Origin: Syntrophomonadaceae bacterium
Lineage (GTDB): Bacteria; Bacillota; Dethiobacteria; DTU022
NCBI GenBank assembly: GCA_007132095.1
Contig: SLPH01000064.1
Location: 1-59,878 of the forward strand
Length of the DNA stretch: 59,878 bases
Direction of reading: 5' to 3'
Every line of letters starts with the position of its first letter. Positions within the stretch are counted from its first letter, which is position 1. Under the pieces are notes generated by a model, which saw only the letters and a program-made list of their open reading frames with translations, did no database searches and was not told the DNA's origin. Shown piece after piece: positions 31,987 through 41,307 of the stretch. The translations under genes were made by a program, and so were the position numbers.

Positions 31987-32018
31987 AAAAAGGTTTCCTT
32001 CTCAGGGGGAGCCTTTTT
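31987..32018 (+). terminator. Terminator after gap
   Basis: AAAAAGGTTTCC...GGGGAGCCTTTTT stem ending in a T run. Confidence 0.75.
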
Positions 32019-32083
32019 CCTTACAGATGACGGCGATGGCCCGCAGTGTTATAATTAAGCCTATCAAACCCGGGGGAGGAGAT

Positions 32084-33307
32084 ATGGTGAAACAGATTCG
32101 GACAATCGAAGAGATAAATGAAAAGATTCGGGCAGGCAAAGTTGTGGTTATGACTGCCGAAGAAGTAATCGGCCTGGTTGAGGAAAAAGGAGTCAACGAA
32201 GCCGCTGCGGCGGTGGATGTTGTAACTACGGGAACATTTGGCCCCATGTGCTCCTCCGGTGTATTTCTCAACCTTGGCCATCCGCAGCCCAGGATCAAGA
32301 TCAACGAAGCTTACCTGAACGGGGTTCCGGCCTATGCGGGAATTGCAGCGGTTGATATATACCTTGGCGCTACCGCTCTTCCGCCGAGAGATCCGGCCAA
32401 CAGGAATTACCCGGGAGAATTTGTCTATGGCGGGGCACATGTTATTGAAGACCTTGTAGCTGGCAAAGAGATTCGCCTCGATGCATCCTCTTACGGAACC
32501 GATTGCTACCCCTTAAAGCGGATCAAGACCAGTTTCAGGCTGGCTGAAATAAACGAGGCCACCCTCTATAATCCCCGCAACGCCTACCAGAATTATAACG
32601 TGGCCGTAAATCTTGGCCAGAAGAATATTTACACCTACATGGGTATTTTGAAGCCGAACCTTGGCAATGCCAACTATAGTTCGGCCGGGCAGCTAAGTCC
32701 GCTTTTCAATGATCCTTACCTGAAAACAATCGGTATAGGAACGCGCCTCTTCCTCGGCGGGGGAATCGGCTACGTTGCCTGGAACGGTACGCAGCATAAC
32801 CCGTCGGCGGAACGCGGCAGTACGGGAGTCCCCAATTACCCGGCAGCAACCCTGGCCCTGGTTGGCGATCTGAAACAGATGAAGCCGCGCTGGCTCAGGG
32901 GCCTGAGCTATCTCGGCTACGGGGCAACTCTGCAGGTGGGGGTAGGTATTCCCATCCCAATTCTTGACGAAGGAATGATGTCGCACTGCGCAATTCGCGA
33001 CGAAGAAATTATGGCCCCAATTCTTGACTACCAGAGAGCCTATCCCTACCGCGAAAGCGGGAACCTGGGCCTGGTAAGCTATGCCGATTTAAAAAGCGGC
33101 TCCATCACGGTGAGCGGGAAAAAGGTTCCTACCGCATCGCTGTCGAGTTATGCCGGGGCAAGGGAAATTGCGGAAACCCTGAAAGAATGGATCAGCGGCG
33201 GTGATTTCGAGCTGACCAGCCCCGCTGCTTCCCTGCCTGCTCATGATGCCGGTATCAGCCTTAAGCCTATGCCGCAAAGAGATCCTGATGGACAGGAGGA
33301 CCAGTAA
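32084..33307 (+). CDS. DUF39/COG1900 homocysteine biosynthesis protein
   Basis: VVTTGTFGPMCSSGVFLNLGHPQPRIKINEAYLNGVPAYAGIAAVDIYLGA, GEFVYGGAHVIEDLVAGK, SYGTDCYP; followed by NIL-ferredoxin and UPF0280 genes. ATG at 32084 after GGGGGAGGAG. Confidence 0.9.
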   Translation: MVKQIRTIEEINEKIRAGKVVVMTAEEVIGLVEEKGVNEAAAAVDVVTTGTFGPMCSSGVFLNLGHPQPRIKINEAYLNGVPAYAGIAAVDIYLGATALPPRDPANRNYPGEFVYGGAHVIEDLVAGKEIRLDASSYGTDCYPLKRIKTSFRLAEINEATLYNPRNAYQNYNVAVNLGQKNIYTYMGILKPNLGNANYSSAGQLSPLFNDPYLKTIGIGTRLFLGGGIGYVAWNGTQHNPSAERGSTGVPNYPAATLALVGDLKQMKPRWLRGLSYLGYGATLQVGVGIPIPILDEGMMSHCAIRDEEIMAPILDYQRAYPYRESGNLGLVSYADLKSGSITVSGKKVPTASLSSYAGAREIAETLKEWISGGDFELTSPAASLPAHDAGISLKPMPQRDPDGQEDQ

Positions 33308-33309
33308 TT

Positions 33310-33735
33310 ATGATTAAACAGAAAATTGTGCTGCGCTTCCCCCCGCATGTGGTTGAGCAGCCCACGATATATCACCTGATTAAAGACTACGATCTGATGG
33401 TGAATATCCTGCGGGCTGATATTAACCCCCGCAAAGAAGGGCGCCTGATGATGGAGCTTAGCGGCAGTGAGTCAAATTACCAGCGGGCCCTGGAATGGAT
33501 GAAAGAGCAGGGGCTTAAAATTATAAGCCTTGAACAGCAGATTATCTGGCAGCAGGATCGCTGTACTCACTGCGGCGCCTGCACTGTGATCTGTCCTACC
33601 GGGGCGCTCTGTTTTACCCGGCCGGAAATGACTGTCCGGTTTGCCGAAGAAAAATGCGTTGTCTGCGAACTCTGCCTGCGGGCTTGCCCGGCTCGGGCGA
33701 TGGAAACCCTGGTTGACAGTGAAAATAGTCTATGA
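33310..33735 (+). CDS. NIL-domain protein with two 4Fe-4S clusters
   Basis: N-terminal NIL-like domain (KIVLRFPPHVVEQPTIYHLIKDYDLMVNILRADI...GRLMMELSG), then CTHCGACTVICP and CVVCELCLRACP. Confidence 0.92.
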   Translation: MIKQKIVLRFPPHVVEQPTIYHLIKDYDLMVNILRADINPRKEGRLMMELSGSESNYQRALEWMKEQGLKIISLEQQIIWQQDRCTHCGACTVICPTGALCFTRPEMTVRFAEEKCVVCELCLRACPARAMETLVDSENSL

Positions 33736-34487
33736 GCGGGAAGCGGGTTTACCGGAAAGAGCTGAACAGCGAGCGGTTAACCTCTTTCAGGGTAACAGTC
33801 AAAGAAACGGATCTCTGGATTGCCGTTAACAGCGCAAGCTATGATCAGCAGCTGCCCCAGTTAATAGAGCAATATGTCTGGGGATTACGCCGCCAGTTGG
33901 AACAATACCTTGCTGCCGAACCTGCTTTTGCGGCGGCGCTTGGCCTCTATTTAGTCGGCGATAACGCTCCGCCTATTGCCCGGGAGATGGCAGTTGCGGC
34001 AAACCGGGTCGGTGTCGGTCCCATGGCAGCCGTAGCAGGCGCTTTTGCTCAATCTGTGGGGCTGGAGCTTTTAAATTGTTCCCCCGAGGTGATTGTTGAA
34101 AATGGCGGCGATGTTTTCCTTAAAGTTGACGCGCCCGTTCTGGTTGGTATTCACGCCGGCAGCTCTGCCTTAAGTGACAAGCTTGCGCTTCAGGTTGATC
34201 CGGAGCAAACACCCCTGGGCGTCTGCACCTCTTCCGGCAGCGTGGGACCGTCCTACAGTGCCGGAAAAGCCGATGCTGCCGTGGTGGTTGCAGAGTCAGC
34301 CTCTTTGGCAGACGCCGCCGCTACTGCACTTGGCAATAGCGTGTCCGGTCCGGAGGACCTTGAAAAAGCGTTTAGTTTTATGCCGGAGGTTGAAGGAATA
34401 TGCGGGGGTTTACTAATCTATGCCGATCAGCTTGCCGCCTGGGGGAGGATTAATCTTAAAAAGACGGGCTCTCTCAGGGAGGATTAA
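33732..34487 (+). CDS. UPF0280 (COG2122, ApbE-like fold) protein
   Basis: EVIVENGGDVFLKV, GVCTSSGSVGPSYSAGKADAAVVVAESASLADAAATALGN; ATGA overlap with preceding gene. Confidence 0.88.
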   Translation: MSGKRVYRKELNSERLTSFRVTVKETDLWIAVNSASYDQQLPQLIEQYVWGLRRQLEQYLAAEPAFAAALGLYLVGDNAPPIAREMAVAANRVGVGPMAAVAGAFAQSVGLELLNCSPEVIVENGGDVFLKVDAPVLVGIHAGSSALSDKLALQVDPEQTPLGVCTSSGSVGPSYSAGKADAAVVVAESASLADAAATALGNSVSGPEDLEKAFSFMPEVEGICGGLLIYADQLAAWGRINLKKTGSLRED

Positions 34488-36673: not shown

Positions 36674-37591
36674 ATGACAACTATGAGTTTGCCTGATTTA
36701 AGAAAATCGTTTGACCGGGCCGGGTATATCTGTGATGAAGTGACCTCACTGACAGTATACCTTGCCCTTGAGCTTCAGAAACCCCTGCTCATCGAGGGTG
36801 CGCCCGGTGTAGGGAAGACCGAAATGGGCAAAGTGTTGGCTGAACTGCTCGATACAGACCTGATCCGCCTGCAGTGCTACGAAGGGCTTGATGAAACTAA
36901 AGCACTTTATGAATGGAACTACCAGCGTCAGCTTTTGCGGATCCAGATGGATCGCGAGCTGGGTGAGGGAAAGATCAGCGAAGAAGATCTTTTTTCGGAT
37001 CGTTACCTGCTGGAAAGGCCTTTATTAAAAGCGATTCGTTCAGAAAAACGCTCGGTCCTGCTGATAGATGAGGTAGATAAGTGCGATCCTGAGTTCGAGG
37101 CTTTTCTCTTTGAAGTGCTGTCCGATTTTCAGGTTTCCATACCCGAGTTGGGGACTATCCCGGCCCGTAATATACCGGTCGTAGTGCTGACCAGCAACAA
37201 CGAGAGAGAGCTATCAGACGGTCTGAAAAGACGCTGTATCTATCTCTATCTTGAGTTTCCCGAGGTTGAAAAAGAGGTCCGGATCATCAAGGCCAAGGTC
37301 CCCGGGGTTGCCGATCGGCTGGCCTGGGAAACTGCGCGGGTGATCTCCAGGCTCAGGCAGCAGTCTGAGCTGAGGAAAAAACCATCTATTGCTGAAACCC
37401 TTGACTGGGTCACGGCCTTAGTATCCCTGAACCGCACCCGCCTTGACGGCAGAACAGTATCAGAAACGCTTAATCTTGTTTTAAAAAACCACGCCGACAG
37501 GCAGGTGTTCGACCTGCAGCTGGGTGAGCGCGGAGTGGAAGAAATCCTGAAAGAGTCCGGAGGCGGGGGGGATATTTGCGGATGCCGTTAA
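36674..37591 (+). CDS. MoxR-family AAA+ ATPase (CoxD-like)
   Basis: LLIEGAPGVGKTEMGKVLAELL (Walker A), SVLLIDEVDKCDPEFEAFLFEVLSDFQVSIPELG, VVLTSNNERELSDGLKRRC. Confidence 0.92.
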   Translation: MTTMSLPDLRKSFDRAGYICDEVTSLTVYLALELQKPLLIEGAPGVGKTEMGKVLAELLDTDLIRLQCYEGLDETKALYEWNYQRQLLRIQMDRELGEGKISEEDLFSDRYLLERPLLKAIRSEKRSVLLIDEVDKCDPEFEAFLFEVLSDFQVSIPELGTIPARNIPVVVLTSNNERELSDGLKRRCIYLYLEFPEVEKEVRIIKAKVPGVADRLAWETARVISRLRQQSELRKKPSIAETLDWVTALVSLNRTRLDGRTVSETLNLVLKNHADRQVFDLQLGERGVEEILKESGGGGDICGCR

Positions 37592-38907
37592 CTGAAGAGA
37601 CCGGACAGGGCGGTTACCTGGAGGAGAACCTTTCTTCGTTCTGCTTTCTTTTACGCAATGAAGGTTTACCGGTTGGCACAACCGAACTGATTGATGCCCT
37701 TCATGCCCTGACCAGGATCGACTCAACCCGCCGCATGGAGTTTAAAGCGGCCCTGCAGGCCACCCTGGTGAAGAGCAGCCGCGACAGGGCAGTTTTTGAT
37801 CGCCTCTTTGATCAATACTTTGTGCCCGCCGAACAGCACCAGATGAGAAGCGAACTGCTGGAGCGGCAGAAAGAAAAGCGGGTCCGCAGTATTGATCAGG
37901 CCAGCTCGGATTTGCAATTTAAGGGCGAAACCCTTCAGTTGAACCCGGAAGAGCTATATCAATACAGTGCTCTCTCCAGCGACCAGCGCGATAAGCTCCT
38001 GGATTTTGTGACCAAAACGGAGCAGGGCAAGAATGTGCAACCCCGTTTCCGGCCCCTGCTCGAAACTGTAGTGAAAAGTCACCTGCGTTATTGTCGCAAC
38101 CAGGATGACAGGGTAGAACCCGGAAAGGGAATATCCGGCTCGGGGCAGGGGGCAGGATCGGGCGGCCCCGACGAACTGGCTCTACGTGATGTGGATATCA
38201 GGACTATAGCAGCTGCAGATTTGCCTGCCGCAGAACAGCTGCTGCAAAGACTGTCGCGAAAGCTGGCCGTAAAACTAATGCGCAGGAGGCGTTATGGATC
38301 GCGCAGCGGCCCCATTGACCTGCGTCGCTCACTGCGGGACAATATGCGTTTTGGCGGAGTTATATTTAATATCAGGCGCAGGCCCAAGCGGCGTCACCGC
38401 CAGCAGATCCTTTTACTCTGTGACTTTTCCGGCTCCATGAAAAGGTACAGCACATTTGTGATCCATTTTCTTTACGGTTTACGGGAGGTAGTTCGTGATC
38501 TATCCTGCTTCTCCTTTTCCGATCGCCTTCAGGATCTCACACCTGATATTAAAGATCGGGTTGCCTTGAAAATAATGCTTGACCGGGTAGTCCGCCGCAG
38601 TAAAACCTGGGGAGGAGGTACCGATATCGGCTGCTCCCTGGAAGATTTGCGCACAAAGCATGCCGGGACGCTCAACAGTCGAACCACCGTTATTGTGGTC
38701 AGCGATACGAGGACAGTATCTCTTAATGCTGCTTACCGGGAATTGTCCCTTCTAAGAGAAGAGGTAAGGCGGATCATCTGGCTGAACCCGCTGCCGCCGC
38801 AACAGTGGGCCGATTACCGTTCGGTGGAACTTTTTTCTGAAACAGCTGAAATGTGGCCCTGCAGCACAATTGCCCAACTGGAAGATATTCTAATCGGTCG
38901 GCTTTAA
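37582..38907 (+). CDS. VWA-domain protein (CoxE-like, COG3552)
   Basis: MIDAS motif LLLCDFSGSMKRYS, WGGGTDIGCSLEDL; overlaps the upstream MoxR ORF. Confidence 0.88.
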   Translation: MPLTEETGQGGYLEENLSSFCFLLRNEGLPVGTTELIDALHALTRIDSTRRMEFKAALQATLVKSSRDRAVFDRLFDQYFVPAEQHQMRSELLERQKEKRVRSIDQASSDLQFKGETLQLNPEELYQYSALSSDQRDKLLDFVTKTEQGKNVQPRFRPLLETVVKSHLRYCRNQDDRVEPGKGISGSGQGAGSGGPDELALRDVDIRTIAAADLPAAEQLLQRLSRKLAVKLMRRRRYGSRSGPIDLRRSLRDNMRFGGVIFNIRRRPKRRHRQQILLLCDFSGSMKRYSTFVIHFLYGLREVVRDLSCFSFSDRLQDLTPDIKDRVALKIMLDRVVRRSKTWGGGTDIGCSLEDLRTKHAGTLNSRTTVIVVSDTRTVSLNAAYRELSLLREEVRRIIWLNPLPPQQWADYRSVELFSETAEMWPCSTIAQLEDILIGRL

Positions 38908-39048
38908 GTCTGACACACCCGGCCATCTCTTTGACGGGGCCTGTAAACCACAGAAAGCGGTTCAATTGTTTTGATTTAACCCCAAATGATTTATGTTGGG
39001 TTATAATAACTGTATGTTTTAGCGATCTCAAGCAGGAGGAATCTAATA

Positions 39049-39804
39049 ATGACAAAACGTATCGCCGTCGCCGGTAAAGGTGGCACAGGAAAAACTACAC
39101 TAACCGCGCTCCTTATCCGCTACCTCATTGAAAACAGGCCCGGCAAAAGTATTCTCGCCGTTGATGCAGATGCAAATGCCAACCTGAATGAGGCGCTCGG
39201 GCTGGAAGTAAGGGATACGATCGGCACCATTCTCGAAGACACGAAGAAACCAAATGCCGTTCCCACGGGAATGACCAAGGATATATTTATTGAATACAGG
39301 CTCAGCCAGGCCCTGGTTGAAGAAAAAGCTTTCGACCTGCTGGTTATGGGTAATCCCCAGGGTCCGGGTTGTTATTGCTATCCCAACGATCTTCTAAAGA
39401 ACTATCTTGAAAAGGTCAGCAAAAATTATGATTACATGGTTATTGATAACGAAGCCGGCCTGGAACACTTAAGCAGGAGACTGCTGCCTATGGTCGATCT
39501 GCTCCTGGTGACCAGCGATTCTTCCGCGCGCGGGATCAGATCAGCCGGGCGTGTTCGGGAAATTGTTGAAACGGTGAAGATAGCTGTTTCAAAGATGGGC
39601 CTGGTGATCGGACGCAGCCGAACCGGCGACAGAGAACAGCTGGCAGGAGAAGTTGAAAACAGCGGTTTGAACTTGTTTGGAGAAATTCCCTATGACAACC
39701 TGGTGGTGGAATATGACCTAAACGGCAAAGCTCTTCTAAGTTTGCCGGATGAATCGGACGCAGTAGCCGCTTCCACGAAATTGTTCGATCAGCTGGACCT
39801 CTGA
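39049..39804 (+). CDS. CooC-family nickel-insertion P-loop ATPase (CODH/ACS maturation type)
   Basis: Deviant Walker A GKGGTGKTT, VDADANANLNEALG, GNPQGPGCYCYPNDLL with the CooC CxC motif (C108/C110). Confidence 0.88.
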   Translation: MTKRIAVAGKGGTGKTTLTALLIRYLIENRPGKSILAVDADANANLNEALGLEVRDTIGTILEDTKKPNAVPTGMTKDIFIEYRLSQALVEEKAFDLLVMGNPQGPGCYCYPNDLLKNYLEKVSKNYDYMVIDNEAGLEHLSRRLLPMVDLLLVTSDSSARGIRSAGRVREIVETVKIAVSKMGLVIGRSRTGDREQLAGEVENSGLNLFGEIPYDNLVVEYDLNGKALLSLPDESDAVAASTKLFDQLDL

Positions 39805-41161: not shown

Positions 41162-41307
41162 CTCTTATCCAGAGCGGAGGAGGGACAGCCCCGATGAATC
41201 CCGGCAACCGGACCTGCAGGTTACGGTGCCAATTGCTGCGAAGCTGTTAAAGGCTTCGAGAGATGAGAGGCGCTGCGCAGGCCTCTTAAGGGAAAGGGGT
41301 CTTTTTT
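41162..41307 (+). ncRNA. SAM-I (S-box) riboswitch with intrinsic terminator controlling metK
   Basis: CTCTTATCCAGAGCGGAGGAGGGACAGCCCCGATGAATCCCGGCAACC...GGTGCCAATTGC...GATGAGAG matches S-box consensus; P1 CTCTTATC/GATGAGAG; terminator CCTCTT-AAGGGA-AAGGGG-TCTTTTTT. Confidence 0.95.

Follow-up and report, generated by a model that had tools for sequence, protein, structure and literature searches.

A three-gene cassette for predicted homoserine-independent homocysteine synthesis in a Syntrophomonadaceae bacterium that also encodes metX-metY

Introduction

A homoserine-independent route to homocysteine has been described in Methanosarcina and in Desulfovibrio. In Methanosarcina, the two-subunit enzyme L-ASST (L-aspartate semialdehyde sulfurtransferase, COG1900a) converts aspartate semialdehyde to homocysteine, with Cys54 being essential and Cys131 dispensable (PMC12068725). 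The enzyme from Methanosarcina acetivorans (MA1821-MA1822) combines a COG1900 sulfurtransferase subunit with a NIL-ferredoxin subunit, while the COG2122 protein MA1715, encoded at a non-adjacent locus as judged by locus number, is required for sulfide to be assimilated efficiently (PMC12068725, PMC5764234) and has been characterized as a sulfur-trafficking protein serving L-ASST (PMC12068725). Proteins of the same families, i.e., DUF39 (DvMF_1464), NIL/ferredoxin (DvMF_0262) and COG2122 (DvMF_0044), are all required for methionine prototrophy in Desulfovibrio vulgaris Miyazaki. Methionine rescues mutants lacking any of the three, and the pathway does not pass through homoserine (PMC5764234). 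Judging by their locus numbers, the genes lie apart from one another in this organism, which lacks the classical routes. An adjacent cluster, DET0921:DET0919, is present in Dehalococcoides, a proposed user of the DUF39 pathway (PMC5764234).

Here, we analyze a 59,878-nt stretch of DNA (contig SLPH01000064.1, assembly GCA_007132095.1; termed the window in the following) from an anaerobic Syntrophomonadaceae bacterium, in which the three families are encoded in a single operon-like cassette. Unlike D. vulgaris Miyazaki, the organism combines this arrangement with a metX-metY pair. The cassette very probably represents the known homoserine-independent pathway from aspartate semialdehyde and sulfide to homocysteine, a prediction that assigns it a published and well supported function. 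Pathway and cassette type are thus already known, widespread and largely ordinary. The pathway as such is established, its chemistry and regulation less so. We add the coexistence with metX-metY, the pattern of replacement among relatives, the linkage of homologous genes with S-box riboswitches and with metH, metX or cysK, a near-invariant cysteine in UPF0280 and a DUF39 fold that finds no match among solved structures.

Gene arrangement and flanking signals

The three co-directional genes span positions 32084-34487 and were identified by profile searches as HcyBio (DUF39/COG1900; HcyBio is the current name of DUF39, PF01837), NIL-2[4Fe-4S] ferredoxin and UPF0280/COG2122 (Table 1). The sequence reveals a gap of 2 nt between the first two genes (33308-33309) and an ATGA overlap at 33732 between the second and the third. 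Both the tight coupling and the families had been proposed in an earlier note made by reading the sequence, and both were found as claimed. Because a terminator-like hairpin follows the upstream GAPDH gene and a promoter-like site is located at 32027-32055, we suggest that the cassette may be transcribed on its own, the leader being very short. The promoter consensus match implies some 20-25 nt, too short to accommodate a riboswitch. Further downstream, at 36674-39804, a MoxR-type AAA ATPase, a VWA-domain-like protein and a CooC-like nucleotide-binding protein are encoded in a row; the last has a profile match (CbiA/AAA_31), whereas the first two are named from reading the sequence.

Table 1. 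Features of the cassette region in the window, and homologous loci with an S-box ahead of DUF39
Feature	Position	Strand	Basis
Terminator-like hairpin and T-run 3' of the upstream GAPDH gene, setting the cassette apart from GAPDH	31995..32019	+	Consensus match only
Promoter-like site, ATGACG-17-TATAAT, extended TG (-10)	32027..32055	+	Consensus match only
407-aa protein of the HcyBio/DUF39/COG1900 family; predicted subunit of L-aspartate semialdehyde sulfurtransferase	32084..33307	+	PF01837, conserved columns, AF2 model
141-aa protein with a NIL domain and two [4Fe-4S] ferredoxin motifs; predicted subunit for electron donation and regulation	33310..33735	+	Profiles
251-aa protein of the UPF0280/COG2122 family; predicted to act in sulfide assimilation or sulfur delivery	33732..34487	+	Profiles, PDB 2o34 relative
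S-box-DUF39 loci (14): L062, L063, L065, L066, L067, L076, L079, L081, L082, L097, L108, L119, L121, L129

Properties of the encoded proteins

The first protein matches HcyBio along the whole profile (1-349 of 349; 506 bits against a cut-off of 26.2, E 4.9e-152), and the Pfam scan returned this as one unbroken match without a ferredoxin insertion. It ends about 30 aa past HcyBio, and no CBS domain was found in the Pfam scan. In this respect it differs from MA1821, which has such a domain; we regard a C-terminal CBS domain as a trait of the methanogen L-ASST and not as defining bacterial members. The cysteines in the motifs GPMCSSG (Cys56) and GTDCYP (Cys141), which the earlier note had described as looking conserved, are invariant in all 88 aligned homologues. 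Judging from motif and position, Cys56 would correspond to the essential Cys54 of the Methanosarcina enzyme, and the pair Cys56/Cys141 would by position be equivalent to Cys54/Cys131. MMP16/ComF (COG1900d) shares the COG1900 domain but contains an inserted ferredoxin domain, has its cysteines placed differently and yields coenzyme M. Identity of our protein with this coenzyme M synthase was rejected, as it scores 116.8 bits against TIGR03287, far below the cut-off of 363.95, and lacks the insertion.

An AlphaFold2 model of the DUF39 protein built with 88 sequences is confident (pLDDT 92.8, pTM 0.90); with 12 sequences only, pLDDT was 44. Neither a structure search nor a sequence search of the PDB gave a match: among the Foldseek matches listed, the best E-value was 0.3 and the TM-score over the query did not exceed 0.12, and the sequence search returned no credible match, only weak, mostly antibody-like ones. 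It thus appears that this fold has yet to be solved, and the combination of a confident model with the lack of a solved match makes the protein a worthwhile structural target.

In the second protein, a NIL domain (PF09383, 61 bits, E 8.7e-17) precedes two 4Fe-4S sites, and each of the eight cluster cysteines is retained in 96-98 of 98 aligned homologues. The third protein scores 269.1 bits against NCBIfam PRK04334.1-3, just below the cut-off of 271, and is related to PDB 2o34 (E 6e-35). One of its three cysteines, Cys165 in the motif GVCTSSG, is near-invariant (69 of 71 homologues) and has a counterpart in PDB 2o34, while the remaining two are not conserved in the same alignment. Cys165 thus offers a concrete residue for testing UPF0280 function. 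COG2122 has been called a distant relative of ApbE (PMC5764234), and an ApbE-like signature had been assigned to the protein in the earlier note. This signature was not recovered: four UPF0280 members did not match ApbE in Pfam at E-values up to 10, and a profile of 30 UPF0280 sequences searched against PDB chains found 2o34 alone with a meaningful E-value and no ApbE.

Proposed pathway

The three genes would form one transcription unit. The DUF39 enzyme is predicted to load sulfur as a persulfide on a catalytic cysteine, probably Cys56, and to pass it on to L-aspartate semialdehyde at the aldehyde carbon. Reduction of the presumed thioaldehyde to homocysteine would draw on electrons from the NIL-ferredoxin subunit, which may also sense methionine, while UPF0280 would aid in delivering sulfide or sulfane sulfur. 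Homocysteine would then be methylated to methionine by a homocysteine methyltransferase. By analogy with the described systems we infer that the copy in the window is active, that a thioaldehyde occurs as an intermediate and that UPF0280 acts as a sulfur relay.

Distribution of the cassette

We examined 60 genomes, consisting of that containing the window and relatives from the same family and order. HcyBio, NIL and UPF0280 are each present in the identical set of 51 genomes. In 50 of these the cassette is contiguous, on one strand and in the same gene order; in the 51st it is divided between contigs. Named genomes outside the order were scanned as well, yielding at least 579 stretches that encode relatives. 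In the 80 that were kept, which represent many phyla, the next gene is usually that for NIL-ferredoxin, and UPF0280 adjoins mostly in Bacillota and Chloroflexota, but often not elsewhere. A cluster from a Dehalococcoides MAG (L099) shows 63% identity to that in the window, although it stems from another phylum and its genes are more widely spaced. Units with all three genes are therefore common, being present across the order as well as in further phyla. The earlier proposal of a Firmicute with the full set as a single unit holds for the operon, though not as something special to this genome. Such cassettes make up compact expression units. One contig labelled Candidatus Nealsonbacteria (L058) carries a DUF39 gene that is 80% identical to that of the window and is probably a mis-binned contig from Bacillota.

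Linkage to SAM riboswitches and methionine genes

The genome contains a single SAM-I riboswitch (S-box). It is situated at metK (41162-41269, 85.1 bits; metK 588 bits), 6.7-7 kb from the cassette, in line with the distance of about 7 kb downstream given earlier, and belongs to a separate transcription unit. Rfam searches 5' of the cassette, both in the window and in 30 order-level cassette loci with flanks of only about 1.5 kb, detected neither S-box nor T-box nor any further regulatory element, and 20 loci from Chloroflexota and other groups likewise yielded neither S-box nor T-box. A different picture emerged in other Bacillota: in 14 of 34 scanned loci (Table 1), two of which, L062 and L063, are near-duplicates, an S-box ends 68-116 nt 5' of the matched DUF39 frame.

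In some loci, further genes are located between the riboswitch and DUF39. Four loci of the Syntrophomonadaceae type (L068, L077, L088 and L090) feature an S-box followed by a gene for a metH-like methionine synthase and then DUF39. The metH-like gene is of the B12-dependent type and short in all four; that of L068 encodes about 840 aa, matched to the MetH profile only up to position 858 of 1182. In L104 (1885-4451), S-box, metX and DUF39 reside in one apparent operon, such that both homocysteine routes lie behind one switch, and the Elusimicrobia locus L135 has the order S-box, cysK, DUF39. Profiles confirmed the neighboring genes in L068, L104 and L135. SAM control and the apparent co-transcription with methionine synthase in homologous loci are independent evidence pointing to a product that feeds methionine. 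Loci of this kind also tie DUF39, NIL-ferredoxin and UPF0280 to methionine by regulation in Bacillota. We found no earlier report of S-box control of DUF39 in the literature searched, which does not prove novelty. A further observation concerns an Atribacteria MAG, where a T-box leader is located directly before DUF39 (L126:4709-4956); its specifier may be AUG (Met).

Coexistence with and replacement of the acyl-homoserine route

The earlier note had proposed to search the rest of the genome for the textbook route and had named a complete metX/metY pathway as one half of what would speak against its assignment. This half is indeed present. MetY (650 bits, cut-off 495) and MetX (463 bits, cut-off 331) are encoded by an overlapping gene pair on a different contig from the cassette, accompanied in the genome by homoserine dehydrogenase (hom), aspartate semialdehyde dehydrogenase (asd) and a protein with a homocysteine methyltransferase domain; a search for MetA in the genome was negative. 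Because MetX and MetY are both there, the organism is by gene content not dependent on the cassette, which is not its only possible route, and a role in methionine synthesis is not forced. The cassette route would run in parallel to the complete metX-metY route. Genomes equipped with both caution against concluding from the presence of DUF39 that metX-metY is absent.

One way to account for the coexistence is that the metX-metY contig entered the assembly as contamination and that the cassette is the organism's sole route. The assembly does consist of 220 contigs with an estimated contamination of 4.93%, and the two gene sets reside on different contigs. Other genomes of the same family, however, have metX-metY genes that are 71-75% identical and arranged in the same way, which makes contamination appear very unlikely; the pair is moreover situated on a 63-kb contig, and G+C contents are similar (51.5% versus 50%).

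MetX, fragments included, is present in 30 of the 60 genomes. MetA was searched for in the genomes without intact MetX and in that containing the window, a scope that leaves the counts unaffected. Each of the nine genomes without the cassette has one of the two enzymes, MetX in eight cases and MetA in the ninth (G017). The 51 cassette-bearing genomes divide into 26 that also have MetX or MetA and 25 with neither, for which no homocysteine route other than the cassette was detected. At least one route was found in all 60 genomes. The statistics for the complementarity of cassette and MetX/MetA are modest, with a Fisher p of 0.007 across all of these mutually related genomes and no significance when restricted to genomes that are at least 90% complete (p 0.13). 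It is the replacement pattern expected if the cassette and the acyl-homoserine route supply the same product.

These findings also bear on the possibility that the cassette produces a thiol other than homocysteine and that methionine stems from metX-metY only. The full metX-metY set would allow for this, the cassette is outside the control of the genome's sole S-box, and the COG1900 paralogue MMP16 acts on sulfoacetaldehyde in forming coenzyme M (PMC12068725). We nevertheless consider such a specificity highly improbable in view of the score against the MMP16 model (116.8 versus 364 bits), the missing ferredoxin insertion, the linkage of homologues to S-box and metH, metX or cysK, and the 25 relatives that have the cassette as their only detected homocysteine route. 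Phyletic complementarity with MetX/MetA, SAM-riboswitch control and the co-operons with metH or metX all support homocysteine as the predicted product, in agreement with the assignment made from the sequence alone. The earlier reading is thus borne out for families, operon and pathway, though not for the ApbE signature, and it had missed the metX-metY pair of the same genome.

If both routes lead to homocysteine, it is conceivable, albeit tentatively, that the cassette serves as an isoenzyme for conditions of high sulfide and strongly reducing potential and metX-metY for others. This would be a refinement compatible with homocysteine formation by the cassette and concerns the physiological division of labor. 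Among the 51 cassette-bearing genomes, at least 21 also have metX and four more metA, metX and DUF39 occur together in the S-box-led cluster of L104, and the conserved arrangement in same-family genomes gives the metX-metY pair a native appearance. A more far-reaching scheme, in which UPF0280 is a dedicated relay that uses Cys165 to bring sulfane sulfur to Cys56 of the DUF39 protein with its unrepresented fold and, in dual-route genomes, enables the cell to switch between the routes according to sulfide and redox state, is speculative and rather unlikely. Apart from MetY, the genome encodes a second, divergent PLP enzyme of PF01053 (L013:6840-8315; G000 contig C53), whose score to OAH/OAS sulfhydrylase, 268 bits, falls short of the cut-off.
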